Positions 9,652 to 39,428 of a DNA stretch of 64,000 nt are shown in pieces; within the stretch, counting starts at the first letter, position 1; each line of letters begins with the position of its first letter. This DNA is from Pseudodesulfovibrio pelocollis. Its GTDB lineage: Bacteria; Desulfobacterota; Desulfovibrionia; Desulfovibrionales; Desulfovibrionaceae. The notes below the pieces were generated by a model that saw only the letters and a program-made list of their open reading frames with translations, was not told the DNA's origin and ran no database searches. The stretch spans positions 1 through 64,000 of the forward strand of contig NZ_JASTWE010000010.1 in assembly GCF_030282845.1 (NCBI RefSeq), written 5' to 3'. A program made the translations under genes and the position numbers.

Positions 9652-9842
9652 CTGTCCGTAAAAGTCAAAAAATGGAGGCTGTTCAAAAATGGTGAGGTGC
9701 GAGGCGCGAAAAAAGTTCAAGGCCGAAGCGTACTTCCTGTACGTGAGGATTTGAACTTTGTGAATAAGCTTTCTGTACGGCTCGAAGACTCGCCGACAGT
9801 CGCTTAACGTCCGCAGATCGCCGTTTTTCAGCAGCCTGTTAA
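9648..9842 (+). repeat. Palindromic interspersed repeat, copy A
   Basis: The spacer between lpxA and lpxI is almost wholly a repeat that recurs in inverted orientation at 47511-47668. Shared features in order are: TTAAC at one edge, AGGCTGTTCAAAAATGGTGAG, the exact inverted pair AAAGTTCAA (9712-9720) and TTGAACTTT (9751-9759), an inner GCGTAC-TTCCT-GTACG hairpin (9728-9743), then AGATCGCCGTTTTTC and CAGCCTGTTAA. The outer edges are themselves inverted (TTAAC...GTTAA and AGGCTGTT...CAGCCTG). Copy A is about 40 bases longer than copy B after the inner hairpin. No protein is encoded; it looks like a REP/MITE-type element. Confidence 0.85.
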
Positions 9843-9851
9843 ACCGACGTC

Positions 9852-24577: not shown

Positions 24578-25065
24578 CGATGGACATCTTCGGGCTCGCC
24601 CTGGACGAGAACAGCAAGGCGCCCATCCTCGTGCTCAAGGAGGCGGGGGGCGAGCGCGTGTTGCCCATCTGGATCGGGGCCATGGAGGCCATGGCCATTT
24701 CCGTGGCCATCAACGCGGTTCCCTTTCCCCGGCCCATGACCCACGATCTGCTCCTCGGGGCCATTGTCGGCCTTGGTTGGCGCGTCGAGGCCGTGGAGGT
24801 CACGGACATCCGCGAGGGGACCTTCTTTGCCGAGATCGTCGTGACTTTGGGCGACGAGGCCCGTCGGCTGGACAGCCGTCCCTCTGATGCCATCGCCCTG
24901 GCCGTGCGCGCCAAGTGCCCCATCCGGGTGGCCGGGCATGTCCTTGATCAGGGCGGCGGTCCCATACAGCATGGCGCGGAGCGGGTCATAAAGACCGAAA
25001 GCGCCGACAAGTGGGCGGATGAGCTTGAGAAATTTTCTGAAGACGATATAAAATACAAGATGTAG
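24571..25065 (+). CDS. Bifunctional nuclease family protein (DUF151)
   Basis: 164-residue DUF151 protein. Diagnostic parts are VLPIWIGAMEAMAISVAINAV, RPMTHDLLL and DSRPSDAIALAVRAKCPI, all conserved in the family. Members have been reported to have DNase/RNase activity, but the biological role in bacteria is unclear. Start is GTG 24571, seven bases inside miaB; ATG 24580 is an alternative three codons downstream. The miaB-DUF151 overlap implies coexpression. Confidence 0.88.
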   Translation: MVTMDIFGLALDENSKAPILVLKEAGGERVLPIWIGAMEAMAISVAINAVPFPRPMTHDLLLGAIVGLGWRVEAVEVTDIREGTFFAEIVVTLGDEARRLDSRPSDAIALAVRAKCPIRVAGHVLDQGGGPIQHGAERVIKTESADKWADELEKFSEDDIKYKM

Positions 25066-25072
25066 GCCCCCC

Positions 25073-25735
25073 ATGATCGACCTGCACACGCACACGGTCT
25101 TCAGCGACGGCGAACTCATTCCGGCGGAGCTTGTCCGCCGGGCCGAGGTCATCGGCTACAAGGCCCTGTGCATGACCGACCACGCCGACGAGAGCACCCT
25201 CTACTTCACTCTGGAGAATATCCTCCGGTTCGTGAAGCGGCACGGGTATTTCTACGACATCATCGTCCTGGCCGGGGTGGAGCTGACCCACATTCCGCCG
25301 CCGCTCATTGGCGAGATGGTGATCAAGGCGCGCGAGGCCGGGGCGCAGGTGGTTGTCATGCACGGCGAGACCCCGGTGGAGCCCGTGGCCCCGGGCACCA
25401 ATCTGGCGGCCATCGAGGCCGGGGTGGACATCCTGGCGCATCCCGGGCTGATCACCGAGGAGGAGGTGGCCCTGGCCGCCGAAAAGGGCGTGGCCCTCGA
25501 GATCACCACCCGGGGCGGCCACAGCTTAACCAACGGCCATGTGGCCGCGCTGGCCCGCAGGCTCGGGGCCAAGCTGGTGGTGAACAATGACGCGCATGCA
25601 CCGAGGGACCTTGTTTCCAAGGAATTGCGCAGGACCATCGCGCTGGGCGCGGGCCTGACGGCCGAGGAATACCGCCAGACCGAGGCCAATGCCCATGAGA
25701 TCGTGCAGCGCTGTCTGCGCGGGGCGACCCGATGA
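25073..25735 (+). CDS. PHP domain phosphoesterase (histidinol-phosphatase-like)
   Basis: 220-residue PHP-domain protein. Metal ligands are visible as HTHTVFSDGE (residues 4-13), MTDHADE (about 37-43), GVELTHIPP, MHGETPVEP, LAHPGLI and NNDAHAP near the C-terminus. PHP proteins use a trinuclear metal centre to cut phosphoesters. The small size and absence of a polymerase or HisK context leave the substrate open. It starts 7 bases after the DUF151 gene and ends 78 bases before tolQ. Confidence 0.85.
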   Translation: MIDLHTHTVFSDGELIPAELVRRAEVIGYKALCMTDHADESTLYFTLENILRFVKRHGYFYDIIVLAGVELTHIPPPLIGEMVIKAREAGAQVVVMHGETPVEPVAPGTNLAAIEAGVDILAHPGLITEEEVALAAEKGVALEITTRGGHSLTNGHVAALARRLGAKLVVNNDAHAPRDLVSKELRRTIALGAGLTAEEYRQTEANAHEIVQRCLRGATR

Positions 25736-25813
25736 CCGGGGCGCAAGATTTGAACCAGTCGATTCGGACCTGCCCGATGCGGTCCGCAACATTCGTATTC
25801 GTGGGGTGACAGC

Positions 25814-26515
25814 ATGAACATGCTTCCTGACAGCGATCTTTTCTCGCTTCTGGCCGGGGCGACCCTGGCCGTGAAAATGGTGATGCTCCTGCTTGGGGGC
25901 ATGTCCCTGTGGAGCTGGGCCATCATCTTTCACAAATTCTTCACCATCGGCGCGGCCCGCAAGAAGGTCATGGAGGGATACGAGGCCTTCATGTCGTCTG
26001 GCGACCTCTCGTCCGGGCTCAAGGCACTGGGGTCCAGGGAACAGTCCCCCCTATCCCGGGTGAGCACCCTGGCGGTCAAGGAATTCCGCCTGCTGGAAAA
26101 GGCGGACGTCAACCGCGACCGCAAGCGGCTGCTGGTCAAGGATACCCTGCGCCGGGTGCTCAAGCAGGGCATATCCAAGGAAATGCGGTCCTTGACGCAC
26201 AACCTGCCCTTTCTGGCCACCTGTGCCAACGCGGCCCCGTTCATCGGCCTGTTCGGCACGGTCTGGGGTATCATGCACTCGTTCCACTCCATCGGCCTGA
26301 CCCAGTCCGCCGCCCTGGCCACCGTGGCCCCGGGCATCTCCGAGGCACTGGTGGCCACGGCCATCGGCCTGCTGGTGGCCATCCCGGGGACGATTTTCTA
26401 CAACTACTTCCTTGGCAAGCTCAATGAGGTGGAAACCGGGATGATCGACTTTGCCGGGGCGTTCCTCAATCGCGCCGAGCGAGAAATCACCTGGGCCACC
26501 AAGGGCGAGCAGTAG
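25814..26515 (+). CDS. tolQ: TolQ, proton channel subunit of the Tol-Pal system
   Basis: Inner-membrane motor component that, with TolR, uses the proton gradient to drive outer-membrane constriction at division. The 233-residue MotA/TolQ/ExbB protein has membrane segments near residues 15-40, 128-160 and 170-200, including FLATCANAAPFIGLFGTVWGIMHSF and ISEALVATAIGLLVAIPGTIFYNYF, the signature proton-channel helices. First gene of tolQRAB-pal. Confidence 0.95.
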   Translation: MNMLPDSDLFSLLAGATLAVKMVMLLLGGMSLWSWAIIFHKFFTIGAARKKVMEGYEAFMSSGDLSSGLKALGSREQSPLSRVSTLAVKEFRLLEKADVNRDRKRLLVKDTLRRVLKQGISKEMRSLTHNLPFLATCANAAPFIGLFGTVWGIMHSFHSIGLTQSAALATVAPGISEALVATAIGLLVAIPGTIFYNYFLGKLNEVETGMIDFAGAFLNRAEREITWATKGEQ

Positions 26516-26524
26516 GAGGCCGTC

Positions 26525-26950
26525 ATGGCTATCAAGACGGGCGGCGGTTTCCTCAATGAAATCAATGTCACCCCATTCGTGGACGTGATGCTCGTGCTGC
26601 TGATCATCTTCATGGTCACCGCGCCGCTCATGACCCAGGGGGTGGAGGTGGACCTGCCCACCACGCGAACGGTGAAGAACCTGCCCCAGGACGCCGAGCA
26701 CCTCGTGCTCACGGTCAAGGGCGACGGCAGCCTGTTTCTCGACGAGTACCAGGTGGCCGAGGACGAGCTGGAAGGCCACCTGACACGGCTGGTCTCAGGG
26801 CAGATGAAGCAGCTTTATCTTCGGGCCGATGCGGCCGTGCCCTACGGCACCGTGGTCAGGATCATGGGCGAGATCAAGGCGGCGGGCATCGACAGGCTGG
26901 GCATCGTGGCCGAGGAAACCTCGGCCCGCAAGGCTCAGGACAAGAAATAA
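26525..26950 (+). CDS. tolR: TolR, Tol-Pal system protein
   Basis: 141-residue ExbD/TolR protein. The single N-terminal membrane helix carries the essential aspartate in INVTPFVDVMLVLLIIFMV (about residues 14-32), followed by a periplasmic domain with GVEVDLPTTR. AGGAGG precedes the ATG and only 9 bases separate it from tolQ. Confidence 0.95.
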   Translation: MAIKTGGGFLNEINVTPFVDVMLVLLIIFMVTAPLMTQGVEVDLPTTRTVKNLPQDAEHLVLTVKGDGSLFLDEYQVAEDELEGHLTRLVSGQMKQLYLRADAAVPYGTVVRIMGEIKAAGIDRLGIVAEETSARKAQDKK

Positions 26951-26973
26951 TCAGCTCCGGATGACATCTCCCT

Positions 26974-27885
26974 ATGCGGCAAAGTCTCGGGTTCACGATT
27001 TCCTTTGTGCTCCACGCCTCATTTCTGGCCTTTGCCCTGTTCTGGGCGGGCGGCCAGACGGTGCGGGTGAACATGGATCGGCCGGTCTATTCGGTCGATC
27101 TGGTGACGTTGGCTCCGCCGCCGCCCGGCCCGGCTCCGGTGGTGGAGGCCGTGGGCGCGCGGGAGACGGCGGCGGCGCAGGCTCCCGTGGTTGAAGCCGC
27201 GCCCGAGCCGGTGGCCGAGATCAAACCCGTGCCGGTGGTCGAGGCCAAGCCCGAGCCAAAGGACATCAGCCCGACCAAGGTGGACAGGCAGCCTGTCGTC
27301 AAGAAGGAAGAAGCACCCAAGCCCAAGCCCGAGCCGAAAAAGCCCGAGCCCAAGCCGGAGCCGAAAAAGCCGGAGCCCAAACCCGAAGCCAAGCCGCAAA
27401 AGACGGCGGAGCAGATGCTGGCCGAAGGGCTGGCCGCAGCCCAGGCCAAGGCCACAGCCCAGGAAAAGCAGCAGGGCGCGGCCATCGCCAAGGAACTGGC
27501 GGCCATCAAGAAGCGCGAGGGCGAACAGGTCTATGCCCACGGCGGCCAGCAGGGTGGCCAGGAGGGCGGCGTGGCCGGGGGAGTCGTCGGCGGCAGCGGG
27601 TCGGGCCTGTCCGAGGTCTATGCCCTCATCGTGGGCACGGCCATCAAGAGGAACTGGCGCTATCCGAGCTTTGCCGGAGAGGCGAACATGGTCGTCACCG
27701 TGGAAATCATTCTTGACGGTGAGGGCAGGATTCTCTCCTCCAGGGTCACGCAGTCGTCGAACAATCCCGAGTTCGACAGCTCGGCCCTGCGAGCCATCAA
27801 GGAAACCGAGATCGTGGAGCGGCCAAGGACCGACAGGGATCGTGTCCTCCGCATCAATTTCAACAGCCAGGAACTTTCAGAGTAA
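26974..27885 (+). CDS. tolA: TolA-like periplasm-spanning protein with TonB C-terminal domain
   Basis: 303-residue protein linking the TolQR motor to TolB-Pal. An N-terminal membrane helix (about residues 6-26) is followed by a proline/lysine/glutamate-rich spacer (about 45-150) with tandem KPEPKPEPK units, an alanine-rich helix and a glycine linker. The C-terminal TonB/TolA domain (about 210-300) contains LIVGTAIKRNWRYP and VEIILDGEGRILSSRV. The spacer DNA 27318-27400 is internally repetitive and may vary in length between strains. No strong ribosome site is seen; translation may depend on coupling with tolR 23 bases upstream. Confidence 0.9.
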   Translation: MRQSLGFTISFVLHASFLAFALFWAGGQTVRVNMDRPVYSVDLVTLAPPPPGPAPVVEAVGARETAAAQAPVVEAAPEPVAEIKPVPVVEAKPEPKDISPTKVDRQPVVKKEEAPKPKPEPKKPEPKPEPKKPEPKPEAKPQKTAEQMLAEGLAAAQAKATAQEKQQGAAIAKELAAIKKREGEQVYAHGGQQGGQEGGVAGGVVGGSGSGLSEVYALIVGTAIKRNWRYPSFAGEANMVVTVEIILDGEGRILSSRVTQSSNNPEFDSSALRAIKETEIVERPRTDRDRVLRINFNSQELSE

Positions 27886-27891
27886 ACAGCA

Positions 27892-29202
27892 ATGAAACGC
27901 ATTCTGACGCTTTGCGCCACTTTTGTCATCGCGGTGTGCGCCGCGACCTCGGCCCTTGCCTCCGGACCGCTCACAGTGGATATCCACGGTCCGGGCCAAC
28001 GCATGGTCAACATCATCCTCCTGCCGCCCAAGAGTCTGGGCGGCAACGAACTGCCCCAGCCCCAGGCCAGGGCCTTCGAGGAACTGGTGGCCAACAACTT
28101 AAGCTACATCCCCTTCCTGAAGATCATCCCCATGCCGGAGCTGCTCGGCGGCGACCCGAGCCGGGGGGTGGGCGCAGGCGACATTGACTTCCGGCCCATG
28201 CAGCTGGCCCGCATCGATCTGTGCATGACCACGGGCTGGAACGGGCGCTCCGTGGAGGCCCGGGTCTTCGAGACCTTTGGCGGCCGCCGCGTGGTGGGCA
28301 AGGCATACAACGACGTGGGCGAGATCACCCTGGCCCAGGCCGCAGACCGCTTCTGCTCCGCCTTTCTCGAGGCCCTGACCGGCAAGAAGGGGTTCTTCGA
28401 CTCGCCCCTGGCCTTTGTCAAGCAGGAGGGCGAGGGCAAGGAGATCTTCACCGTGCTCCCCCAGGGGCGCGAACTCAAGCGCATCACCAAGCTTGGCGGG
28501 TTCAACCTGAGTCCCTCCTGGTCGGCAGACGGCTCGAAGATCATCTTCACCCATATTGCCAAGACCCGTCACGAACTCGGGGTGTACGACAGCAAGACCC
28601 AGAAGATCACCCTGTACTCGCAGGGGCTCGGCCAGACAGTCATCAGCCCCATGTTCGGCCCTGGCGACAGGCCGGTGGCGGCTCTCAACCTCAACGGCAC
28701 TACGGACATCCACGAGCTTGACGAATCCTACCGGCCCAAGCGCAAGCTGGCGCAAAGCCCCTATATCGAGGTGTCGCCCAGCTTTGACCGCACCGGCTCC
28801 AAGATGGCCTTCACCTCGGGCCGGGCGGGCAACCCGCACATCTACCTGATGGACATGAAGTCCGGCGAGGTCCGCCGTGTGACCATGACCGGCACATACA
28901 ACACCCATCCCTGCATGAGCCCGGACGGTCGTTACATCGCCTACACCGCCCGCACCGGAAGCGGGCACCGGATATTTTTGCACGATCTTTCGACCGGACG
29001 TGAGAAACAGTTGACGTTCGGCCCCGGAAACGATGAATATCCGGCATTCGACCCGGATGGATATTTCCTGGCCTTTGCCTCCAGCCGCACCGGAGAGTTC
29101 AAGCTCTACCTCACCACGCGGCACGGGGATACGCCAAGGATGCTCTCCACCGGGCCGGGGCAGGCCTTTGCCCCTGCGTGGGATACGGCGTTGCAATGGT
29201 GA
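27892..29202 (+). CDS. tolB: Tol-Pal system protein TolB
   Basis: Periplasmic beta-propeller protein that binds Pal and TolA. A signal peptide ends near residue 23 (SALA-SG). An N-terminal alpha/beta domain (about residues 25-165) precedes WD40-like PD40 repeats (about 190-430) with recurring SPSWSADGSKIIFT, SPSFDRTGSKMAFTS, HPCMSPDGRYIAYT and YPAFDPDGYFLAFAS units. At 436 residues it has the standard length. It begins 6 bases after tolA. Confidence 0.95.
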   Translation: MKRILTLCATFVIAVCAATSALASGPLTVDIHGPGQRMVNIILLPPKSLGGNELPQPQARAFEELVANNLSYIPFLKIIPMPELLGGDPSRGVGAGDIDFRPMQLARIDLCMTTGWNGRSVEARVFETFGGRRVVGKAYNDVGEITLAQAADRFCSAFLEALTGKKGFFDSPLAFVKQEGEGKEIFTVLPQGRELKRITKLGGFNLSPSWSADGSKIIFTHIAKTRHELGVYDSKTQKITLYSQGLGQTVISPMFGPGDRPVAALNLNGTTDIHELDESYRPKRKLAQSPYIEVSPSFDRTGSKMAFTSGRAGNPHIYLMDMKSGEVRRVTMTGTYNTHPCMSPDGRYIAYTARTGSGHRIFLHDLSTGREKQLTFGPGNDEYPAFDPDGYFLAFASSRTGEFKLYLTTRHGDTPRMLSTGPGQAFAPAWDTALQW

Positions 29203-29324
29203 ATCGTCACTGAATCAGGGTTGATTTTTCACGGCGAAAGGGTACACATATACTGGAAACCCCTTTTTCCGGGCAGCTCAAACGTCAATGGCCGAAAAAA
29301 ACGGCCCTACCTCAAGGAGTGGGC

Positions 29325-29882
29325 ATGAACTCGAAATGGTATCTCGCGGCAATGATTCTTTTGGTCCTCGCGCTCGGCGCCGGGGCCGGTTGTTCCAAGA
29401 AAACGTCGACCAGCACCCCTCCCGGCACGCAGGTCGAGGTGACGGACGAAAGCAGATGGGCGCAACCGTCCACGTCCGGACAACCGTCCGTGGATGAAGC
29501 CACGCTGGCCTCCGAGGCCGAGCGCCGCGCCAAGGCCGAGGCTGTGCAGGAGCTGACCAGCGTCACCATCCGCTTCGCCTTCGATTCCTATGAATTGAAC
29601 ACCGAGGCCCGCTCCATTCTGGCGCTGAAGGCCAACATCATGCGCCGGTTCACCGATGTCCGTGTCGTCATCGAGGGGCATTGCGACGAGCGCGGCACCG
29701 AGGAATACAACCTCGCCCTGGGCGAACGCCGGGCGCGTGCCGCCTACGAGCATCTGGTCATCCTCGGTGTTGACCCCAGCCGCATGAGCATCGTCAGCTT
29801 CGGAGAGGAGCGTCCCCTCGACCCCGGCCACAACGAAACCGCCTGGGCCAAGAACCGCCGGGCAGAGTTCGTGGTCCGGTAA
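29325..29882 (+). CDS. pal: Peptidoglycan-associated lipoprotein Pal
   Basis: Outer-membrane lipoprotein that binds peptidoglycan and TolB. A lipoprotein signal peptide ends at Cys23 (LGAGAGC), with glycine rather than the usual leucine at -3. The C-terminal OmpA-like domain has [40 protein letters not shown] and [25 protein letters not shown], including the diaminopimelate-binding Asp and Arg. ATG 29325 has AAGGAG upstream. Last gene of the tol operon, followed by a strong terminator. Confidence 0.96.
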
Positions 29883-29903
29883 CTGTCGCAGGTATGGATT
29901 CTC

Positions 29904-29936
29904 AGGCCGCTCCCGCAAGGGGGCGGCCTTTTTTTT
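29904..29936 (+). terminator. Rho-independent terminator of the tol-pal operon
   Basis: AGGCCGC-TCCC, a short GCAA loop, then GGGG-GCGGCCT form a GC-rich stem directly followed by eight T residues. It lies 22 bases past the pal stop. Confidence 0.93.
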
Positions 29937-29995
29937 GGGCTTACGAGGGATGCGCTGGGAGCGTTGGCAGGGAAGGGAAGGCGCGGGTGGAAACC

Positions 29996-30469
29996 TCAAA
30001 GAATCCAGGCGATCAGGTGCAGGCAGAGCAGGGCGTAGAGCCCGGCCACGCCATCGTCGGCCATGACCCCGAGCCCGCCGGGAAAGGCTGTCTCGGCCCA
30101 CTGCACGGGCCAGGGTTTGAGGATGTCAAAACCCCGGAAGAGAACAAAGGCGAGCCCCAAATACCAGATGGGCATGGCCGAGAAGAAGAGCAGCGTCAGC
30201 CACTGGCCGAACAGTTCGTCGATGATCACGCAGCCCGGGTCCTTGCGGCCCATGGTCCGCTCGGCCACGGCGCAGGCCCAGACCCCCACTGCGAAGACCG
30301 CCGCCAGCGCGGCCAGCCGTCCCCACAGCGGCAGGGGCAGGAAGAGCCAGGGCGCGGCCACCACGGCGGCCAACGATCCCCATGTGCCCGGAGCCTTCGG
30401 GAAATGCCCGATGGGGCCAAGGGTGGCCAGGGCCGTGCCCAGGGTGTCGAGGGGGGATTTGGATTTCAT
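29996..30469 (-). CDS. pgpA: Phosphatidylglycerophosphatase A
   Basis: Dephosphorylates phosphatidylglycerophosphate to phosphatidylglycerol in the inner membrane. The 157-residue protein shows the PgpA signature GHFPKAPGTWGSLAA, four hydrophobic segments, the acidic site DPGCVIIDELFGQW and FRGFDILKPWPV with GGLGVMADDGVAGLYA near the end. I chose ATG 30469 with AAGGAG upstream; the frame stays open to 30814 without family similarity. Confidence 0.94.
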   Translation of the reverse strand: MKSKSPLDTLGTALATLGPIGHFPKAPGTWGSLAAVVAAPWLFLPLPLWGRLAALAAVFAVGVWACAVAERTMGRKDPGCVIIDELFGQWLTLLFFSAMPIWYLGLAFVLFRGFDILKPWPVQWAETAFPGGLGVMADDGVAGLYALLCLHLIAWIL

Positions 30470-30800
30470 TCTCGTGGTCTCCTTGTCGGCTGCTCGCCGT
30501 TGCCGCGTCTGGAAGCGCTGTCGCCCCCTGTGTACACGCATGTGTCGCAGCTGTACAACAGGAATTGGATGTGCTTCAAATCGTTTGATCTTGTGTGTCA
30601 TGGTGTCGTTAAAGGGCGTTGCCACCAGGCGATGAGTTCGGCCTCCTGAGCCCTTTTGACCCGACTCGCTCGGGTCGCCTCGCTTGGGCAAGATTGTCAA
30701 TACGCAGGAGAAAAGGGGCATTCCGGGAGGGGCGTATTTACACCATCCGGGGAGTGGATTAGGGTCCATGGCTGACATCATTCTCAGCGAGGGGCCGACA
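30470..30800. other. Divergent intergenic region without a gene
   Basis: The 331 bases between the divergent pgpA and LysE-family starts contain no credible gene. It holds palindromic GTGTACAC-like sequence near 30530-30545 and a GACCCGA-CTCGC-TCGGGTC hairpin (about 30658-30676). Both genes must be transcribed from here, but I could not identify a convincing promoter pair. Confidence 0.6.
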
Positions 30801-31418
30801 ATGGCTTTCAACACGTGGTTCGCCTATTTCCTGCTCATGACCGCCATCGCTTACACGCCCGGGCCCATGACCATGTTCTCCATGTCATCGAGCGTGCGCA
30901 ACGGGTTCGTGCGGACCCTGCCAGCCATTGCGGGCGGCTCGTGCGCCTATGTCACGCAGATGGTCATCGTCTATCTCGGCCTTGGCGTGGTGGTCCAGAG
31001 TTCGAGCATGGTCTTCAATATCATCAAATGGGTCGGCGTGGCCTATCTCGTGGTCCTCGCCGTCAGGAACTGGCGGCAGCCGCCCATGGACGCCCCATGG
31101 GCCGAGGCGAGGCCGACCACGCCCCTGCTGCGGCTCTTCTGCCTCGGCTATGCCACGGGCATGTCCAACCCCAAGTCGGTTCTGGTGTTCACGGTGCTCT
31201 TTCCGCAGTTCATCGATCCGGCCCACTACACCGGGCATTTCCTCATCCTGGCGGCGAGCTTCTTCGTCATCCAGGGCAGCAGCGCCGTGGCCTATGCCCT
31301 GTTCGGGGCCAGGACCTTCTGCTGGCTGCGCGAGCGATGCCTGACCCGGCTCCAGAACCGGGTCACGGCCGTGATTCTCTTCTGCGCCGGGGGCTTGCTG
31401 GCGGTGAGCGAAAAATGA
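30801..31418 (+). CDS. LysE/RhtB family amino-acid exporter
   Basis: 205-residue inner-membrane protein of the LysE/RhtB family with six hydrophobic segments. Family features are AIAYTPGPMTMFSMSSSVRNG (the TPGP motif) near residue 20, KWVGVAYLVVLAVRNWR and GMSNPKSVLVFTVLFPQFID. I chose ATG 30801 (GAGGGG upstream), which gives the usual family length; the frame is open to 30684. The exported substrate is unknown. Confidence 0.9.
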   Translation: MAFNTWFAYFLLMTAIAYTPGPMTMFSMSSSVRNGFVRTLPAIAGGSCAYVTQMVIVYLGLGVVVQSSSMVFNIIKWVGVAYLVVLAVRNWRQPPMDAPWAEARPTTPLLRLFCLGYATGMSNPKSVLVFTVLFPQFIDPAHYTGHFLILAASFFVIQGSSAVAYALFGARTFCWLRERCLTRLQNRVTAVILFCAGGLLAVSEK

Positions 31419-31766
31419 GGTGTTTCCGGGGCATGGCAATCTTTCGTTGAGTTAATTCCCCGGCTCGGGTAACGATTTTATCCAAGTCCGTCAGAACGTG
31501 TTTATATGGTCGTTCGTGATCTGGGGACAGTCGATGGACATTGTTTTGGTATTTTTGTACTTGGGCTTTGACCCGCAACCAAGAGGATCAAACGACGAAT
31601 CATGACGTTGCGGATGGATGTTATTATAAGAAAAACAGAATGATACTCAATGTGAGAGAGTTTTTTCCCTGGATAAGGTCATATAGATTATGTTTTTATT
31701 GCAACGTGTTGAGTTGCAGCTTGAAATTTTAGGTGTGTTCAATTCTTTAAAAAGAAAGTAGATGCC
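31419..31766. other. Composition-shift spacer before the radical SAM gene
   Basis: In these 348 bases the GC-rich DNA gives way to AT-rich DNA from about 31590 onward. A GGGGACA motif lies at 31523-31529. The small open frame 31541-31732 has no ribosome site and no recognisable similarity, so I do not call it. No clear promoter was identified, although the AT-rich stretch 31660-31760 could hold one. Confidence 0.6.
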
Positions 31767-32702
31767 ATGAAAGAAGCTCCGTGTCATTTTGTGAGACCGT
31801 TTTTAGACAGGTTTGGCGACTTGTACCCATGTTGCTTTGTAAACATGAAGCCAGAGTTTAAAATAGGATCCGTAGATGATGAAGACCTTCTAGATAAAAT
31901 GTATTCTTATGACAAGGCGTGTCAATGTGGATTTCTCAAGTTCAGAAAGTGGCAGAAAGGAGACAAATTAAATCTTTTGAATATTCAGACATCGCTCAGC
32001 TGTCATGGAAAGTGTGCAGTCTGTTATGTTTCTGCTCCACTGAAAAAAGAAAATATAGAATTGGATTATGAAAAAGCTTACAATTTTTTAGAAAAACTCA
32101 ATCCAAATGTCTTGTATTATGAAGGTGGAGAAGTCCCGATACAAAAAAAGGCACTTGAATTTGTAGCACAAGTTAAAAAGGGGATTGCACCTCAAAAATT
32201 GCATCTTCTTACAAACGGATGCTATAATACAAATACGGCAAAGACTTTGTCAGATATGTTTACCGACTTTACTGTTTCTTACATGGGGATATCAAAAAAT
32301 ACTTATTATCATGAGACGATGCTCGATGTTGATGTAACTAAAAATTTTTCCGTAGAAGTTCACCGACGTACTGGGAAAATTGGATTTAGATATATATGCA
32401 CTCCACTTACCATGATCGAGGCTGGAGATTTTCTTGATTTTGCCGCAGGGTTTAAAGATAGTCATGTCATTTATGCTGACTGTGATATCAATAGCTATGC
32501 AAAGGAGCCGCGCGCCATTCCATATTGGTCGCAGGTTATTCGTAGATGCCAGCTGCGATTCAAGGAATCGCTGCTGACGAACAGAGAGAAATTGTTGCAG
32601 TTCAATTTCAAGGTGAAATTTGAACCAAGGACGGCAGGATTGCTTGGGGTATCCAAGGAACTTGTAGACAAGTTCAAGATTCCCAATGTCGATTTTTACT
32701 GA
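31767..32702 (+). CDS. Orphan radical SAM protein with N-terminal SPASM-like cysteine motif
   Basis: 311-residue protein. The radical SAM cluster motif C-x3-C-x2-C is at Cys79, Cys83 and Cys86 (CHGKCAVC). The GGE motif (120-122) and TNG motif (149-151) of the partial TIM barrel follow. Before the barrel, C-x10-G-x4-C (Cys6, Gly17, Cys22, with Cys23) matches the opening pattern of SPASM auxiliary-cluster domains, and CQC (52-54) adds two cysteines; SPASM normally lies after the barrel. The gene is AT-rich (32041-32100 has only 12 G or C), unlike all neighbours, and stands alone. Function unknown; transfer from a low-GC source is likely. The ribosome site is weak (GAAAG). Confidence 0.85.
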   Translation: MKEAPCHFVRPFLDRFGDLYPCCFVNMKPEFKIGSVDDEDLLDKMYSYDKACQCGFLKFRKWQKGDKLNLLNIQTSLSCHGKCAVCYVSAPLKKENIELDYEKAYNFLEKLNPNVLYYEGGEVPIQKKALEFVAQVKKGIAPQKLHLLTNGCYNTNTAKTLSDMFTDFTVSYMGISKNTYYHETMLDVDVTKNFSVEVHRRTGKIGFRYICTPLTMIEAGDFLDFAAGFKDSHVIYADCDINSYAKEPRAIPYWSQVIRRCQLRFKESLLTNREKLLQFNFKVKFEPRTAGLLGVSKELVDKFKIPNVDFY

Positions 32703-32753
32703 GTTTGAGACTTATCTCCACATCAAGCTTTGCACGAGACCATCCTCTACGCT

Positions 32754-32784
32754 TGTCCCCGGGGGAAATGACGGAGCGGGGACA
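32754..32784. repeat. Inverted repeat behind the radical SAM gene
   Basis: TGTCCCCG (32754-32761) and CGGGGACA (32777-32784) form a perfect 8-bp stem with a 15-base loop between the convergent ends of the radical SAM gene and maf. There is no T-run, so terminator function is doubtful. The same GGGGACA word occurs on the other side of the AT-rich gene at 31523. Confidence 0.5.
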
Positions 32785-32785
32785 T

Positions 32786-33403
32786 TCAGCCTCTTCGAGG
32801 CTCTACGAGCCCCCGCTCGATCAGCGCCTCCAGCACCCGTGCCACGGGCAATCCTACCACGTTGGTATATGACCCCCTGATGGCTGTGACCAGGAAGGTG
32901 CCCACGCCCTGGATGGCGTAGGCTCCGGCCTTGTCCGTGGGTTCGCCGGTGGCGATGTAGGCGCGCAGTTCGGCTTCGGTGGAGACGCGCATGTCCACGT
33001 CCGTGGTCACGGCGCGGGTGAGGGCGTCGTGGCCGGGGGCCGTCAGGCAGAAGGCGCTGATCACCTGATGGGTCCGGCCCGAGAGCGCGGTGAGCATGGT
33101 CAGGGCCTCGTCCGGGTCGGCGGGTTTGCCCATGATCCAGTCACCAAGGACCACGATGGTGTCCGCGCCGAGCACGGTGCGGCCCGGATGGCGCTCTGCC
33201 ACCTCCATGGTTTTCATCAGCGCCATGCGCGCCGCGTAATCGGCCGGTTTTTCGCCGGGCAGGGGGGCGGGCTCCTCGGCCCGGCTGGGCACCACCTCGA
33301 AATCGAGGCCGAGATCGGCCAGCAGCTCGCGCCTGCGGGGCGAGGTCGAGGCCAGGACGATGGGAACCGTGGACGTGAAGGGACCGGGAGTGCGCTGTGT
33401 CAT
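32786..33403 (-). CDS. maf: Maf family nucleotide pyrophosphatase
   Basis: Hydrolyses non-canonical or pyrimidine nucleoside triphosphates (dTTP/UTP or m7GTP) to monophosphates. The 205-residue protein has IVLASTSPRRRELLADLGL at the N-terminus, VLGADTIVVLGDWIMGKPADPDEA in the middle and EPTDKAGAYAIQGVG with SYTNVVGLPV near the end, all classic Maf motifs. I chose ATG 33403; the longer upstream frame overlaps the divergent motB region and shows no similarity. Confidence 0.94.
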   Translation of the reverse strand: MTQRTPGPFTSTVPIVLASTSPRRRELLADLGLDFEVVPSRAEEPAPLPGEKPADYAARMALMKTMEVAERHPGRTVLGADTIVVLGDWIMGKPADPDEALTMLTALSGRTHQVISAFCLTAPGHDALTRAVTTDVDMRVSTEAELRAYIATGEPTDKAGAYAIQGVGTFLVTAIRGSYTNVVGLPVARVLEALIERGLVEPRRG

Positions 33404-33623
33404 GATGGGCCTGAAACTGGCCCAGAACCGGCGGCGAGTCAATAACGGACTCCGGGACGGACACTTGCCGCAGGGGCCGCCCGGATGACGGAATTTTGCC
33501 GCTCGGCGCGGGCTGGGGAGTGGTGTTGCGAGCAGCCGGGGGCGGAGTGTCGCTATTCCGAATGGTTGTGGACGTGGCGTGGTTCTTGCTTGGTCGCGTG
33601 TGCGCACCAAGCGCGGGAGAACC

Positions 33624-34352
33624 ATGCGAGACATCGACGCCAATTTCACCAAGGGATTTTCCTCCTTCGAGCAGATCGAGGGAGCGCCTCGCGCCACGGG
33701 CGTGAACGACTGGGCCGTGCCCTGGGCCGACCTGATGATGGTCATGTTCGTGCTCTTCGTGGTCCTGTTCATCTATGCCAGCACCCATCAGGACGTGCGG
33801 GTGCTTTTCAGCCGACAGAGCGCGGAAGAGGCCAGGGACATGGGCGCCCTGGACCCGCTCATCGGGCTCATCGGCCAACTGTCAAGCCGGGCCGACATGC
33901 TTGGCTCGCGGGATACGGTGCGCATGGCCGACAACCAGGTGCTCTATCGCTCCCGCGTCGACGGCGTGACCGTGATCCGCGAGGGGGCTGGCCGCGTGCG
34001 CGTCAGCCTGCGCGGCGATCTTTTCTTCACGGCCGGGGAGCAGGGCCTCAGACCCGAGTCTGATGAATATCTTCAGGAAATATCGGATGTTGTCCGCCTG
34101 AGCGTGGGTATGGTCCATGTGCTGGGTCATGCGTCCGAGGATGAGGCGTCCGACGGCGCCATGAGCGGCTTTGCCCTGTCTACGGGCCGCGCGGCCGGGG
34201 TGGCGGACCTGCTCATGAACCGGTTCGGCGTGGACCCGAGGCGGGTGACCATCACCGGCAGAGGCTCGCTGCATCCCGAACTGCCCGGGACGAGTGCGGG
34301 CAATCAGGCCATGAACAGGCGCGTGGAAATTCTCATCACCAACGAAATTTGA
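33624..34352 (+). CDS. motB: MotB-like flagellar motor / OmpA-domain protein
   Basis: 242-residue stator-type protein. A single membrane helix near residues 30-50 carries the proton-relay aspartate in VPWADLMMVMFVLFVVLF, preceded by an unusually long cytoplasmic tail. The C-terminal OmpA-like peptidoglycan-binding domain (about 130-242) has LFFTAGEQGLRPES and GHASEDEAS...FALSTGRAAGVADLL. I chose ATG 33624 with GGGAG upstream. It is followed by a motA-like gene, the reverse of the usual motAB order. No other flagellar gene is nearby. Confidence 0.85.
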   Translation: MRDIDANFTKGFSSFEQIEGAPRATGVNDWAVPWADLMMVMFVLFVVLFIYASTHQDVRVLFSRQSAEEARDMGALDPLIGLIGQLSSRADMLGSRDTVRMADNQVLYRSRVDGVTVIREGAGRVRVSLRGDLFFTAGEQGLRPESDEYLQEISDVVRLSVGMVHVLGHASEDEASDGAMSGFALSTGRAAGVADLLMNRFGVDPRRVTITGRGSLHPELPGTSAGNQAMNRRVEILITNEI

Positions 34353-34369
34353 ACCGGTCGGAGGATGGC

Positions 34370-35254
34370 ATGAACAGGAAAAATATCATCGGCGTGATCC
34401 TCAGCCTGTTGCTCTTCGTGGGCAGCTTCCTGCTGACGGGCGCGGCCTCGGCCTACTGGAATCTGGCCGCCTTCCTGGTGGTCGTGTCCGGTCTGTGCGC
34501 GGCCATGCTCGTCAGTTATCCGACAGCCCACATCCGCAACGCCTTCAGAGTGGCCAAGAATGCCTATACCAACGGCCACGCCACCTCCGGGGAGATCGTC
34601 AACACCCTGCTCGACCTCTCGGTCAAGAGCAAGGTGGACGGCCTGCTCTCCCTGGAGCGCAACGAGGCCAAGGCCACCAGCTCGTTCCTCAAAAACGGCC
34701 TGATTCTCCTGGTGGACAATTACAAGGAAGAGGAAATCCGCGAGACCCTCAACGCGGAGATGGCCTTCTTCAACCTGCGCCGTCAGCAGAGCGAGCGGTT
34801 TTTCCAGACCATGGCGCGCATGGCCCCGGCCTTTGGCGTGGCGGGCAGCGTCATCGGCCTCATCGGTCTGCTCATGGGCATCAACGATACGGCCGTGATT
34901 CTCAAGAACATCCCGGTGGCCTTCATCTCCACCCTCTACGGCCTGGTCCTCAGCAATCTCGTCTTTTCGCCCATCGCGGAAAACATCAACTATTCGACGC
35001 GGGTGGAGCTTCTGAATCAGAAGCTGGTCCTGGAGGGCATAGTGGCCATCAGCAAGGAGCAGAACTCCTACAAGCTGGAGCGCAAGCTGGCCTCGTTCCT
35101 CAGCCCCAGCGAGCGCGAGGGCAAGACCGAGACCCTGCGACGCATCACGCGCAAGTATGTGGAAAAGCGCAACAGCCCCCTTGATCTGGAAGACCTCCTC
35201 GCGCCCGATGAAGCCCGCGCCGAAACCGTTGCCGAGGCGGGCCGGGTCGCATAA
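34370..35254 (+). CDS. motA: MotA-like stator / TolQ-ExbB family protein
   Basis: 294-residue membrane protein of the MotA/TolQ/ExbB superfamily. Two N-terminal segments (about residues 5-25 and 30-50), a cytoplasmic loop with a helical ERNEAKAT region, and two further segments carrying MAPAFGVAGSVIGLIGLLMGI and IPVAFISTLYGLVLSNLVF, matching the MotA proton-channel helices. GGAGG precedes ATG 34370, which I prefer to the TTG at 34349. It probably pairs with the MotB-like protein encoded 17 bases upstream. Confidence 0.86.
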   Translation: MNRKNIIGVILSLLLFVGSFLLTGAASAYWNLAAFLVVVSGLCAAMLVSYPTAHIRNAFRVAKNAYTNGHATSGEIVNTLLDLSVKSKVDGLLSLERNEAKATSSFLKNGLILLVDNYKEEEIRETLNAEMAFFNLRRQQSERFFQTMARMAPAFGVAGSVIGLIGLLMGINDTAVILKNIPVAFISTLYGLVLSNLVFSPIAENINYSTRVELLNQKLVLEGIVAISKEQNSYKLERKLASFLSPSEREGKTETLRRITRKYVEKRNSPLDLEDLLAPDEARAETVAEAGRVA

Positions 35255-35308
35255 CCCGCAGTCTCCGGGACAGCCGGCAGCGTCCGGTCGCACAGGCATC
35301 GCGAGCAC

Positions 35309-35330
35309 GAATCCGCCCACGGGCGGATTC
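35309..35330 (+). terminator. Possible terminator after motA
   Basis: GAATCCGCC and GGCGGATTC form a perfect 9-bp stem with a CACG loop, 54 bases after the motA-like stop. Only GCTCGTTTC follows, so the U-tract is poor. Confidence 0.45.
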
Positions 35331-35403
35331 GCTCGTTTCGGCCGCGGCGGGCTGGCTTTCGCGCCCGATTGTGCTAGGTTGCCTCCAGGACGGAGGGCTG
35401 GAC

Positions 35404-36411
35404 ATGGCAAGGATTCTGGCCGCCGACATCGGCGGCACGCACAGCAGATTCGCGGTCTTCGAGACGACGGGCGGCCCCCTTGACATGGAGGACTCCCGGT
35501 GGCTCGAAACCCGCGCTGCGACGTCCTTTGTCCACCTGCTCGACCAGCTTCGCGACAGCGGCTTTCCCTTTGAGCACGGCTTCGACGCGGCCGTGCTGGC
35601 CGTGGCCGGGCCGGTGGTCGCTGCCACGAGGTGCAGGCTGCCCAACGTGTCTTGGAGCGTGGACCTGGGCGATGTGGAACTCGGGGCGCGCCGGGCCTGT
35701 CTGATCAACGACTTTGCGGCCCAGGCCCACGCCTGCCGCACCCGGGTCATGGACGGGGCGCGTATTCTCCAGTCGGGCAGGGCCGGGCAGGGCAGGGCCG
35801 GGTCGTGCGGAGCCGAAGTGGACGGGGCCGAAGCGGATGCCGTCATCGGCGTCATAGGCGCGGGCACCGGGCTCGGTCATTCGGCCCTGATTCCCGACCA
35901 GGGGCGATGGATCGCCCTGTCGTCCGAGGCCGGGCACATGGCCTTTCCCTTCACCGGATCCGACGAGGCCGGATTCGAGGCGTTCGTGCGCCGGGAGACA
36001 GGGCGGGGCTGCGCCGAGGGCGATGTCGTGGTCTCCGGCCCCGGGCTGCGCCTGCTTCATGCCCACCTCACCGGCCAGTGGTTGACGCCCGCCGACATCT
36101 CCGCCTCCATCACCCCCGAGAGCCCCACGGCCCGATGGTTCGCCCGGTTCTATGGCCGGGCGTGCCGCAACTGGGCCTTGGCGGTCATGCCCCGTGGCGG
36201 GCTGGTGGTCAGCGGGGGCGTGGCCGCCCGAAATCCCATGCTCGTCAACATCCCGGAATTTCTGGACGAATTCCGCAACTGCGCCACCCATGCGGACTTC
36301 CTGTGCTCGCTGCCGGTGCTGCTCAATGCCGACGAAAGGAGCGGTCTGTTCGGCGCGGCGGCCTTTGGCAGCCTATGGCTGGCGGATGCGACGCTGGCCG
36401 GGGAGGGTTGA
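35404..36411 (+). CDS. glk: Glucokinase (ROK-unrelated Glk type)
   Basis: 335-residue ATP-dependent hexokinase-fold protein. ILAADIGGTHSRFAVFE at the N-terminus is the phosphate-binding loop, LINDFAAQAHA carries the catalytic aspartate, GVIGAGTGLGHSALIP and SSEAGHMAFPF follow, and GGLVVSGGVAARNP is the adenosine motif; these match Glk. Residues about 124-143 hold a glycine/alanine/arginine-rich insertion from a GGGCAGGGC-type tandem repeat (about 35775-35803). ATG 35404 has GGAGGG upstream. Confidence 0.88.
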   Translation: MARILAADIGGTHSRFAVFETTGGPLDMEDSRWLETRAATSFVHLLDQLRDSGFPFEHGFDAAVLAVAGPVVAATRCRLPNVSWSVDLGDVELGARRACLINDFAAQAHACRTRVMDGARILQSGRAGQGRAGSCGAEVDGAEADAVIGVIGAGTGLGHSALIPDQGRWIALSSEAGHMAFPFTGSDEAGFEAFVRRETGRGCAEGDVVVSGPGLRLLHAHLTGQWLTPADISASITPESPTARWFARFYGRACRNWALAVMPRGGLVVSGGVAARNPMLVNIPEFLDEFRNCATHADFLCSLPVLLNADERSGLFGAAAFGSLWLADATLAGEG

Positions 36412-36553
36412 GCAGGCCCATCACGCCGGAAAAAAAGGATTTCTCCTTTGCCGGTTGCGGCATGATTTGAACTCTTGATTAATCGGTCGAACAAGGGTAA
36501 ATGCACGGTTCTTCCGTTCCTCCCCTCGGGAAAACGCCAGGAGATCGACCGTC

Positions 36554-37036
36554 ATGGGTGACAAGAGCCGCTACCAGAAGATGTATCCCGTTTCCTGGGA
36601 ACAGTTGCACCGCGACTGTCGCGCCCTGTCGTGGCGTTTGATGGAAAAGGGGCCGTGGAAGGGGATCATCGCCATCACCCGGGGTGGCCTCGTGCCAGCG
36701 GCCATCATCGCCCGGGAGCTTGATATCCGCCTCATCGACACCATCTGCCTCTCCAGTTACGACTGGAAGGCGCAGGGCAGCGCCACGGTGCTCAAGTCCG
36801 TGGACAACGACGGCCAGGGATGGCTGCTCATCGACGATCTCGTGGACACGGGCAAGACCGCACAGATCGCCCGAGACATGGTGCCCAAGGCCCACTTTGC
36901 CACGGTCTACGCCAAGCCCGCCGGGCGGCCCATGGTCGAAACCTTCATCACCGAGGTCAGCCAGGACACCTGGATACTCTTCCCGTGGGACGCGGGTTCC
37001 CAGTTCGTCCAGCCCATCATCCAGGCTTCCGAGTAG
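36554..37036 (+). CDS. gpt: Xanthine-guanine phosphoribosyltransferase
   Basis: Converts guanine or xanthine and PRPP to GMP or XMP. The 160-residue protein has the PRPP-binding motif [12 protein letters not shown] (about residues 91-102), [19 protein letters not shown] near residue 40, and the C-terminal WILFPWD typical of Gpt. AGGAG lies upstream of ATG. It precedes a nucleoside-type ABC importer, which points to a purine salvage role for the whole block. Confidence 0.93.
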
Positions 37037-37160
37037 GGTCGCAAAAATAGTTGTTCAAGTATTATGATGTGATGGAACTCGCTTCGAGAAAGCGGGTGTT
37101 GCCCAAAAAGGCATGCTGGGATATTGGCAGTTGATACAAACGCACATGGAGAGGTCCACG

Positions 37161-38345
37161 ATGAAAAAAATGATGAAACTGTTCGCCGCATCCGCCCTAT
37201 CGCTGGCGCTGATGCTGTCCCTGTTCGCCTGCGCCGAGGCTCCGGAGGAGAAGAAGGCAGAGGCTCCCGCCACCCAGTCCGAGGCGACAACCGAAGCCTC
37301 CGGCGAGGCGTCTCCCGATGCGTCAGGGGAAGCCGCCCCGGCCGAGGAGAAGACCGTCAAGGTCGGGTTCGTCTACGTCTCGCCAGTGGGCGACGCGGGC
37401 TATTCCTATGCCCACGATCTGGGCCGCAAGGCCGTGGAGGCGCTTGACTTCGTCACCACCTCCTACGTCGAGTCCGTACCCGAGGGCGCCGACTCCGAGC
37501 GCGTCATCCGCAACATGGCCCGCAAGGATTTCGACATCATCTTCACCACCAGCTTCGGCTACATGGACCCGACCATCAAGGTGGCCAAGGAGTTCCCCGG
37601 CGTCCGGTTCATGCACTGCTCCGGCTTCAAGAAGTCCGAGAACGTCAACAACTACTTCGGCCGCATCTATCAGGCGCGCTACCTGACCGGTCTGGTGGCC
37701 GGTGCCATGACCAAGTCCAACAGGCTCGGCTACGTGGCCGCCTTTCCCATCCCCGAGGTCATTCGCGGCATCAACGCCTTTACCCTGGGTGTGCGCCAGT
37801 CCAACCCCGAGGCCGAGGTGCGTGTGGTCTGGACCAAGACCTGGTATGACCCGGCTCTGGAGAAGGACGCCGCCAAAAGCCTGCTCGACGCGGGCTGCGA
37901 CGTCATCGCCCAGCATCAGGACTCCCCGGCCCCGCAGGAGGCCGCCCAGGAGGCCGGTGCCTACTCCGTCGGCTACAATTCCGACATGTCCTCCTTCGCG
38001 CCCAGGGCGCACCTGACCTCGGCCATGTGGAACTGGGCTCCCATGTACGTCAAGACCGTGGAGCAGGTCCGCGACGGCTCCTGGCAGGGCGATCAGGCCC
38101 TGTGGTGGTCCATGCAGGACGGCGTGGTTGACATCGCGCCCATGGGTCCGATGGTTCCCGAGGACGTCAAGGCCCAGGTGCTCGCCAAGCGCGACGAACT
38201 GATGAGCGGTGTTGACACCGTGTTCGCCGGTCCCATCAAGAACCAGCAGGGCGAGATCGCCGTGCCCGAGGGAACCTCCATGACCGACGGTGAAATGCTC
38301 GGCATGACCTGGTTCGTGGAAGGCGTCGTCGGTTCGGCCGAGTAA
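37161..38345 (+). CDS. BMP family ABC transporter substrate-binding lipoprotein
   Basis: 394-residue periplasmic lipoprotein of the Med/BMP family, which bind purine nucleosides or related compounds. The lipobox SLFAC gives lipidated Cys24; an alanine/glutamate/serine-rich linker follows (about 25-65). The binding domain shows VGFVYVSPVGDAGYSYAHD, DIIFTTSFGYMDP, GVRFMHCSGF and QHQDSPAPQEAAQEAG. ATG 37161 has GGAGAGG upstream. Genes for two permeases and an ATPase follow directly. Confidence 0.93.
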   Translation: MKKMMKLFAASALSLALMLSLFACAEAPEEKKAEAPATQSEATTEASGEASPDASGEAAPAEEKTVKVGFVYVSPVGDAGYSYAHDLGRKAVEALDFVTTSYVESVPEGADSERVIRNMARKDFDIIFTTSFGYMDPTIKVAKEFPGVRFMHCSGFKKSENVNNYFGRIYQARYLTGLVAGAMTKSNRLGYVAAFPIPEVIRGINAFTLGVRQSNPEAEVRVVWTKTWYDPALEKDAAKSLLDAGCDVIAQHQDSPAPQEAAQEAGAYSVGYNSDMSSFAPRAHLTSAMWNWAPMYVKTVEQVRDGSWQGDQALWWSMQDGVVDIAPMGPMVPEDVKAQVLAKRDELMSGVDTVFAGPIKNQQGEIAVPEGTSMTDGEMLGMTWFVEGVVGSAE

Positions 38346-38357
38346 AGTCTCGGACAG

Positions 38358-39428
38358 ATGGCACTGAAGATACGAAAACGAGATGAACCCTGGAAGTGGG
38401 GCGCCCTGGTCATTTTCCTGGGCGCCCTGCTCTTTTCGCTGGGTGTGAGCTGCCTGCTCCTGGCGGGGCAGGGCAAGGACGCCCTGCACGGGATGTTCAT
38501 CCTCTGGGAAGGGAGCTTTGGCAACCTCTGGGCCCTTGAGGGCGCGCTGCTCAAGGCCATCCCCCTCTTCCTGTGTTCCCTCGGCGTGGCCGTGGCCTTT
38601 CGCATGCAGATATGGAACATCGGGGCCGAGGGGCAGTTCGCCCTGGGGGCCATCGGGGCCACCTGGATGGCGCTCAGCTTCCCCGGGCTGCCCTGGTACG
38701 GGCTGATGCCCCTCATGTTCGCCATGGCCTTCCTGCTGGGCGGGGCCTGGGCCTTCATTCCGGCCGTGCTCAAGCTCAAGTTGCGTGTCAACGAGATCAT
38801 CTCGACCCTGATGCTCAACTACATCGCCATCCTTCTGCTCGACTACCTCGTCTTCGGGGTGTGGAAGGACCCGACCAGCTTCGGCTTTCCCATGACTCCC
38901 GAGTTCACCTCCGGGGCGGTCATCGCGGGCATCGGCTCCAGCCGGGTCCACTGGGGTTTGCTCTTTTGCGCCGTGGTGGGTGTCGGGCTGTGGGCCTTCA
39001 TGCGCTTCACCCGCCTCGGGTTCGAGCTCAAGGCCAGCGGCGAGGGCGCGCGCGTGGCCCGTTACGCCAAGATTCGCTATGGTCTGTTGACCATGTTCGT
39101 CATGGGGTTGTCGGGCGGCTTTGCCGGGTGGGCCGGGTGCATCGAGACTTCGGCCGTGCTCAACCGGCTGCAACCCAGCCTGATGGTGGGCTACGGCTAC
39201 ACGGCCATCGTGGTGGCCTGGCTGGCCCGGCTCGAACCCCTCAACATCGCCTTTGGGGCCTTCCTGCTTGCCGCCCTGCGGGTGGGGGTGGAGAACCTCC
39301 AGCTCGAATTGCAGATTCCGGCCGCCTTCGGGGTGATCATGGAGGGCATGATCCTGCTCACCGTGCTGGCCGGGCAGTTCTTCCTGACCTATCGCATCGA
39401 GCGCGCCCCGCGTGAGGGGGGGGAGTGA
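38358..39428 (+). CDS. ABC transporter permease, nucleoside (BMP) type, first subunit
   Basis: 356-residue membrane protein of the BPD_transp_2 family (YufP type) with about eight to ten hydrophobic segments. It contains WNIGAEGQFALGAIGATW and KLRVNEIISTLMLNYIAILLLDYLV, characteristic of the first permease of BMP transporters, and GFELKASGEGARVARYAKI in the cytoplasmic coupling loop. It begins 12 bases after the binding protein and overlaps the next permease. Confidence 0.92.
   Translation: MALKIRKRDEPWKWGALVIFLGALLFSLGVSCLLLAGQGKDALHGMFILWEGSFGNLWALEGALLKAIPLFLCSLGVAVAFRMQIWNIGAEGQFALGAIGATWMALSFPGLPWYGLMPLMFAMAFLLGGAWAFIPAVLKLKLRVNEIISTLMLNYIAILLLDYLVFGVWKDPTSFGFPMTPEFTSGAVIAGIGSSRVHWGLLFCAVVGVGLWAFMRFTRLGFELKASGEGARVARYAKIRYGLLTMFVMGLSGGFAGWAGCIETSAVLNRLQPSLMVGYGYTAIVVAWLARLEPLNIAFGAFLLAALRVGVENLQLELQIPAAFGVIMEGMILLTVLAGQFFLTYRIERAPREGGE

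Follow-up and report, generated by a model that had tools for sequence, protein, structure and literature searches.

The window analysed here, the whole 64,000-nucleotide stretch of Pseudodesulfovibrio pelocollis DNA (contig NZ_JASTWE010000010.1, positions 1 to 64,000), carries a gene for a radical S-adenosylmethionine (SAM) protein in which a domain of the twitch type, predicted to hold an auxiliary cluster, precedes the catalytic barrel. The protein belongs to a clade that is rare and is without a named family in the libraries searched. With moderate confidence we read it as a two-cluster radical SAM enzyme with a front twitch domain that oxidises or epimerises a surface-glycan sugar, present in this genome as an orphan. 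Within the window the finding is a modest one, a rare family being represented by a single orphan gene. The features on which the analysis draws are collected in the table.

Table. Features of the lysE-maf region of the window and of the radical SAM gene within it
Feature	Position	Strand	Basis
LysE-type translocator gene, left edge of slot (start uncertain)	30810..31418	+	PF01810
AT-rich segment without counterpart in G085, probably acquired	31476..32720	.	blastn against L070, GC
Radical SAM protein with N-terminal twitch domain	31767..32702	+	intact ORF, 311 aa
N-terminal twitch/SPASM-like domain, residues 4-56	31776..31934	+	Pfam SPASM, AlphaFold2
Cys6, candidate ligand ahead of β-hairpin	31782..31784	+	13/13 members
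Cys22-Cys23, candidate ligand past hairpin (either one)	31830..31835	+	C22 12/13, C23 13/13 members
Cys52-x-Cys54 (CxC), candidate ligands past helix 41-46/47	31920..31928	+	13/13 members
Radical SAM cluster motif C79-x3-C83-x2-C86	32001..32024	+	13/13 members
GGE motif, residues 120-122	32124..32132	+	13/13 members
Remnant of FkbM-type methyltransferase gene (last 16 codons and stop)	32721..32771	+	81% over 16 aa
Maf-like gene, right edge of slot (start uncertain)	32786..33388	-	PF02545

The window protein is a member of the radical SAM superfamily, with the CX3CX2C and GGE motifs and a partial TIM barrel. The cluster motif, the GGE and the TNG of residues 149-151 lie in the intact reading frame where the earlier note had placed them, the TNG being looser across the family (T in 11, N in 13 and G in 12 of 13 members). 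Pfam Radical_SAM matches residues 76-208 (E 0.0019) at 18.8 bits, below the curated cut-off of 29.5. AlphaFold2 models the whole protein with a pLDDT of 85.4 and a pTM of 0.85, and the first barrel strand of this model spans residues 70-74. The top Foldseek matches of the full model are radical SAM enzymes, with SkfB ranked first, BlsE second, a lipid synthase third, viperins fourth and sixth and DesII fifth, while SpeY appears at ranks 34 and 42 (E 0.002-0.004); we take BlsE, DesII and SpeY to be radical SAM enzymes acting on sugar-containing substrates. SpeY entries also match the barrel by sequence in a search of the PDB (E 1.6e-6), in which the peptide epimerase YydG is the best match.

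Modelled alone, residues 1-73 reach a pLDDT of 88.9, and the model places strands 12-13 and 18-20, then C22-C23, a helix at 41-46/47 and finally C52-x-C54. The twitch fold, as set out in excerpts of PMC6231123, consists of a hairpin followed by a helix, with one ligand on either side of the hairpin and two past the helix, and the order of cysteine, hairpin, cysteine, helix and CxC in the window protein agrees with this description. The same excerpts report a CxC after the helix in SkfB and PqqE, both of which hold a [2Fe-2S] cluster in crystals. Pfam SPASM matches residues 16-60 of the window protein (E 0.0022) at 18.6 bits, below the curated cut-off of 21.5, and only the start of the profile is covered (to position 52 of the 67 of PF13186). 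Across the family, SPASM is found at E ≤ 1 in 12 of 12 members scanned and above the curated cut-off in seven of the nine relatives scanned singly, with L055 falling below it (17.3 bits) and L053 not listed at E ≤ 0.01. The match precedes the barrel in the window protein and in all eight relatives with a printed position, those of L052 and L054 not being among the positions printed. In the PDB, a profile of the N-terminal part finds CteB (5wgg, E 0.0013) and gives a weak match to anSME (4k36, E 0.64), and both align to the front domain at a G-x-x-x-P-C turn, where the anSME cysteine is by numbering Cys276, described in part of PMC6231123 as an auxiliary-cluster ligand. Foldseek with the front domain alone returns five weak matches (best E 0.72), four of which are CteB or SuiB chains.

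The earlier note had likened C6-x10-G17-x4-C22, together with the CC at 22-23 and the CxC at 52-54, to the opening of a SPASM motif, and these residues are indeed present and conserved beyond chance in 13 proteins of the family. The refuting case named in the earlier note, homologues without the cysteines, was not borne out, as C6, C23, C52 and C54 are present in all 13 and C22 in 12, solely L053 having a glycine at this position. The residues invariant in all 13 are C6, G17, P21, C23, G34, C52 and C54 in the front domain and C79, C83, A84, C86 and G120-G121-E122 in the barrel part. Since the cysteines are conserved, Pfam, hhalign and HMMER each match SPASM or twitch domains and the order of secondary structure fits, the predicted auxiliary-cluster site in the front domain is well supported. 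The likeness does not extend to a full two-cluster SPASM domain, which is rejected because, of the seven-cysteine motif C-x9-15-G-x4-C-gap-C-x2-C-x5-C-x3-C-gap-C (given in the excerpts of PMC6231123), the middle C-x2-C-x5-C-x3-C cysteines are missing, which leaves just the opening C-x10-G-x4-C and a CxC. With four candidate ligands and one predicted cluster, the domain is, as judged from sequence and model, better named twitch than SPASM. The second ligand may be either C22, as indicated by the SPASM formula G-x4-C (PMC6231123, in part), or C23, as indicated by its invariance. In SkfB, the pre-hairpin cysteine lies about 12 Å from the cluster in the crystal according to the same excerpts, out of reach of the cluster, so that the number of four ligands is uncertain in the window protein too.

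Relatives of the protein are few. At E ≤ 0.001, six of 247 genomes of the order matched, comprising its own genome, four with matches to the barrel only, and one (G110) whose homologue reaches the N-terminus, with 31% identity over residues 4-247 and a BLASTP match over residues 5-299 (E 3e-35). The resulting two-row alignment added two homologues, one in another genome of this genus (G711, from a scan of 288 genomes of the taxonomic family) and one in the phylum (G334, from a scan of 395 genomes), and the four-row alignment found 11 loci in GTDB contigs, the G711 and G110 copies (L048 and L053) among them. These 11 loci come from Pseudodesulfovibrio, a metagenome-assembled genome titled Deltaproteobacteria, Geotalea, Humidesulfovibrio, Lentisphaerae, Thiodictyon, Omnitrophota and four Spirochaetes, and together with the window protein and the G334 copy (L046) they make up the 13 proteins compared. 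Members thus come from several phyla, with pairwise identities of 25-83%, and homologues cover almost the full length of the window protein. The window protein is the outlier, at 25-30% identity to each other row where the others share 29-83% with one another, and it alone departs from C87, Q119 and L124, on which the other 12 rows agree, having Y87, E119 and P124 instead. The Humidesulfovibrio homologue (L053) is extended at its N-terminus by about 130 residues (9632-10030), for which no Pfam match was found at E ≤ 1e-5.

The rarity holds at each level searched. A 12-row profile matched two of the 395 phylum genomes at E ≤ 1e-30, its own genome included, and full-length matches were present in three of the 288 genomes of the taxonomic family, again including its own, with G711 the only other within the genus; in its own genome the window protein had one match at E ≤ 10. 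No relative was found in single-sequence scans of genome contigs and viral contigs, nor in viral contigs with the alignments A2 and A3, and the best matches among phage and plasmid records were weak, at E 0.3 and 0.08, respectively. Many radical SAM genes with matches to the barrel were considered as family members and excluded from the count among the matches listed, because the printed matches sit on the barrel; the best E was no better than 1e-9 in 163 of the 165 genomes matching in the phylum scan with the two-row alignment, and no better than 4e-10 in 87 of the 90 matching in the scan of the taxonomic family. Also uncounted were a gene in G112, which matches from model position 16 and has one stop inside, and two in G268, which match from positions 36-37.

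The earlier note had remarked that SPASM domains normally follow the barrel, which agrees with the parts of PMC9012708 and PMC6231123 that describe twitch and SPASM domains as C-terminal to it; in the window protein, the twitch domain (residues 4-56) is found ahead of the barrel and not at this C-terminal position. The front position is itself already a named architecture, NCBIfam NF033640 (N_Twi_rSAM), to that extent qualifying the remark. NF033640 matches nine of 12 family members at E ≤ 0.01, the matched stretches shown being the barrel part, and the highest score shown for a relative is 34.7 bits where the cut-off is 170; the window protein was not listed against it at E ≤ 10. Scanning 148 phylum genomes with NF033640 found six loci, one of them above the cut-off. 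One (L064) was left out of the comparison set on account of an internal stop and a match beginning only at profile position 86, and the other five proteins (L059-L063), of which one exceeds the cut-off, all have a domain with conserved cysteines ahead of the barrel. By hhalign, the family matches these five N_Twi_rSAM-like proteins collinearly at 98.8% over window residues 7-238, and the front domains alone match at 91.7%.

A tree separates the 13 family rows from the five N_Twi_rSAM-like rows with support of 100/99. From this separation and the collinear profile match, sequence comparison places the window clade as a distinct, unnamed one beside the named N_Twi_rSAM subfamily, with a layout that is not new in kind. 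The window protein and others sit on long branches in this tree, and most of its inner branches (11 of 15) are poorly supported, so that no donor can be named for the window gene. A literature search for N-terminal SPASM or N-terminal twitch domains in radical SAM enzymes, with subscription journals mostly outside its scope, found none, and for circularly permuted SPASM radical SAM proteins the only match was PMC5332604, on ocean viruses.

The gene stands out from its surroundings by composition, as the earlier note had recognised. It has 38.2% GC, and 37% at third codon positions, against a window mean of 63.3% (sd 4.1, in 933-base windows taken every 100 bases), and the lowest such window outside the gene region has 54.1%. 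The AT-rich tract extends beyond the gene, with 38.1% GC over 31476-32717. Of the genomes of the genus that were searched, G085 is the closest as judged by LysE (90%) and Maf (87%). It is collinear with the window at 83-86% over 23876-31475 and 32731-39539, the outer bounds being those of the 16-kb stretch compared, the blastn match to its locus L070 ending at 31475 and resuming at 32731. A second unmatched patch lies at window positions 30469-30732, where this relative has about 780 bases (L070 6572-7355).

In place of the radical SAM gene, G085 has an FkbM methyltransferase gene (L070:8180-9292, PF05050), and the remnant codons 32721-32768 of the window are 81% identical to the end of its product (E 5e-5 against a 1.4-kb target). 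The presence of this tail suggests that the methyltransferase probably came first and was then replaced, that is, that the radical SAM gene probably displaced most of an earlier FkbM gene; two more FkbM genes lie elsewhere in the same genome. The earlier statement that no precursor, methyltransferase or glycosyltransferase gene is adjacent therefore holds for complete genes and overlooks the FkbM tail.

Other genomes fill the same stretch differently. In G711 it holds a gene for a 286-residue protein whose cysteines, by eye, resemble a ferredoxin motif and which has no Pfam match at E ≤ 1e-5, the distant family homologue of this genome lying outside the slot, and in G188 it holds a GNAT acetyltransferase gene; in G087 a GNAT gene adjoins maf and lysE has no match, and in G093 lysE is not adjacent to maf. 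The lysE-maf stretch is thus a variable one-gene slot. The slot spans 31415-32788 in the window (radical SAM gene), L070 8040-9308 (FkbM gene), L074 2095-3129 (gene for the 286-residue protein) and L078 156-1494 (GNAT gene). The window gene, with its foreign composition and its variable slot, both directly supported, is an orphan that was probably acquired.

No tRNA was found near the inserted segment, no repeat at its edges, no terminator in the AT-rich stretch and no Rfam match in 26000-38000. A 23-nt repeat pair of 78% identity flanking the segment (at 31339 and 33409) was judged to be chance among short imperfect repeats. Promoter-like sites (7, against 2.5 in shuffles) were given no weight as the stretch is AT-rich, and a purine-rich stretch lies 5' of the start codon of the gene. 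In the family gene of L049 (9953-10945), GC content is likewise low, at 33.3% inside a locus of 50.5%.

The surroundings of the relatives offer a route to a substrate. In each of the eight non-spirochaete loci, one or more polysaccharide or nucleotide-sugar genes, confirmed by Pfam, lie no further than about 10 kb away, a raw count for which the scanned neighbours were chosen by hand, several of them without a match. These neighbours are a flippase (L046), a GT2 glycosyltransferase (L048), an epimerase (L049), a Wzt-type ABC transporter (L050), a GT2 and an epimerase (L053), a pyruvyl transferase and a cytidylyltransferase (L055), NeuB and a cytidylyltransferase (L056) and two group-1 glycosyltransferases (L057). 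A second radical SAM gene adjoins the family gene in L046 and L048, and one is nearby in L055.

In the four spirochaete loci (L051, L052, L054 and L058), the family gene stands behind one row of genes in the same order, comprising an AMP-ligase, an ACT pair, two ferredoxin-oxidoreductase genes, a putative lipoprotein and then the radical SAM gene, with Pfam names resting on single representatives, and no glycan gene was recognised beside it. The enzymes of this operon are 77-97% identical to the query copies, the radical SAM protein 56-81% and the lipoprotein 45-71%. The putative lipoprotein gene lies directly 5' of the radical SAM gene in all four (L051 5149-5793, L052 9322-9972, L054 9321-9971, L058 9322-9972), with an overlap in L051; it diverges more quickly than the enzymes further upstream.

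Starting from the domain order, the conservation of the candidate ligands and the homology of the front domain, which are directly supported, a mechanism can be proposed. A [4Fe-4S] cluster at C79, C83 and C86 would cleave SAM, and the front twitch domain would hold an auxiliary cluster through C6, C22 or C23, C52 and C54. The resulting 5'-deoxyadenosyl radical would abstract a hydrogen from a carbon atom of the sugar in a surface-glycan precursor, the front cluster might take up the electron by analogy with BtrN, and the product would be a ketosugar or an epimerised sugar. BtrN oxidises an amino-cyclitol, with the auxiliary cluster as the likely electron acceptor (PMC9012708, in part). The sugar reading draws on the glycan genes near the eight non-spirochaete loci and on BlsE, DesII and SpeY among the fold matches. 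Against it count the four spirochaete loci, the high fold ranks of SkfB, a lipid synthase and viperins, and YydG as the best sequence match. For the window copy, no glycan gene was recognised beside the gene, which also counts against the sugar reading; as this copy is also the most divergent, its substrate may differ. In a partial (β/α)6 barrel, the N- and C-termini both lie next to the open side; the active site could then be covered by a domain attached to either terminus, and this would explain how a permuted domain could work. More tentatively, the proposal may be widened to an undescribed cross-phylum clade, marked by a permuted twitch domain with a CxC auxiliary site, that modifies surface-glycan sugars, its auxiliary domain reaching the active site from the front of the barrel, and whose gene travels as lone swappable glycan-modifying cargo, here exchanged for a methyltransferase.

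The protein might instead act on peptides, as a maturase of RiPPs or of proteins in the manner of SkfB, CteB or EpeE, with its precursor elsewhere or lost. We regard this as unlikely. It keeps some weight through SkfB as the best fold match of the full model and YydG entries as the best PDB sequence matches; the CxC auxiliary site also resembles those of SkfB and PqqE. Against it, the relatives have either glycan genes or a metabolic gene row as neighbours, and the five residues ahead of C6 leave no room for a RiPP recognition element (RRE) before the twitch domain in the window copy. Pfam lists no RRE in the window protein, and RREs are easily missed. The sole small ORF compared, of 63 residues at 31541-31732, had no match better than E 3.8 in the 13 loci and is not supported as a precursor. 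A small peptide system found no backing in the one small ORF compared, and most relatives point to surface-glycan chemistry.

A small metabolite, a cofactor or a redox partner as substrate, with the spirochaete row as the informative context and the glycan clusters as mere hot spots for mobile genes, is in our estimate quite improbable. The same gene order precedes the family gene in four of four spirochaete loci, and low-GC copies (38% in the window; 33% in the 50% locus L049) suggest mobility; on the other side, sugar or polysaccharide genes lie near eight of eight other loci from several phyla, and the spirochaete copies are related (57-83% identity) and may represent one event. That the window copy is a landed gene, functionless in its host and decaying, is very unlikely, since the frame is intact, all candidate ligands and catalytic motif residues are kept and a purine-rich stretch precedes the start, even though the gene is an orphan of foreign composition, consensus residues are altered at Y87, E119 and P124 and, in the 288 genomes of the taxonomic family, the only other full-length match in the genus is the distant G711 homologue, located elsewhere.

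The clade bears on two wider questions. The CxC pair, tied to [2Fe-2S] clusters in the SkfB and PqqE crystals (PMC6231123, in part), bears on the type of cluster, and a conserved clade with the same order of cysteines ahead of the barrel makes it possible to examine whether uptake of the substrate radical's electron depends on where the auxiliary cluster is placed. Among known systems, the twitch dehydrogenases BtrN and SpeY are alike in having one auxiliary cluster, and their sugar-like substrates would fit the glycan context, but their twitch domain is C-terminal and there is no close sequence similarity; SpeY, which we presume to have a sugar-like substrate and a C-terminal twitch domain, is a weak match by both sequence and fold. 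The sactisynthase SkfB resembles the window protein in having a cysteine before the hairpin, one after it and a CxC past the helix, its ligands being CX33CXC where the window counterpart is C23-x28-C52-x-C54, but differs in that its twitch domain lies behind the barrel and a peptide-binding RRE lies in front (PMC6231123, in part). The proteins of the NF033640 type share with the window protein an N-terminal twitch domain followed by the radical SAM domain, and are homologous to it over both. The last cysteine pair differs, being CxC in the window clade and C-x4-C (four proteins) or C-x2-C (L059) in the NF033640-like set L059-L063, a difference that may mark a different type of cluster.
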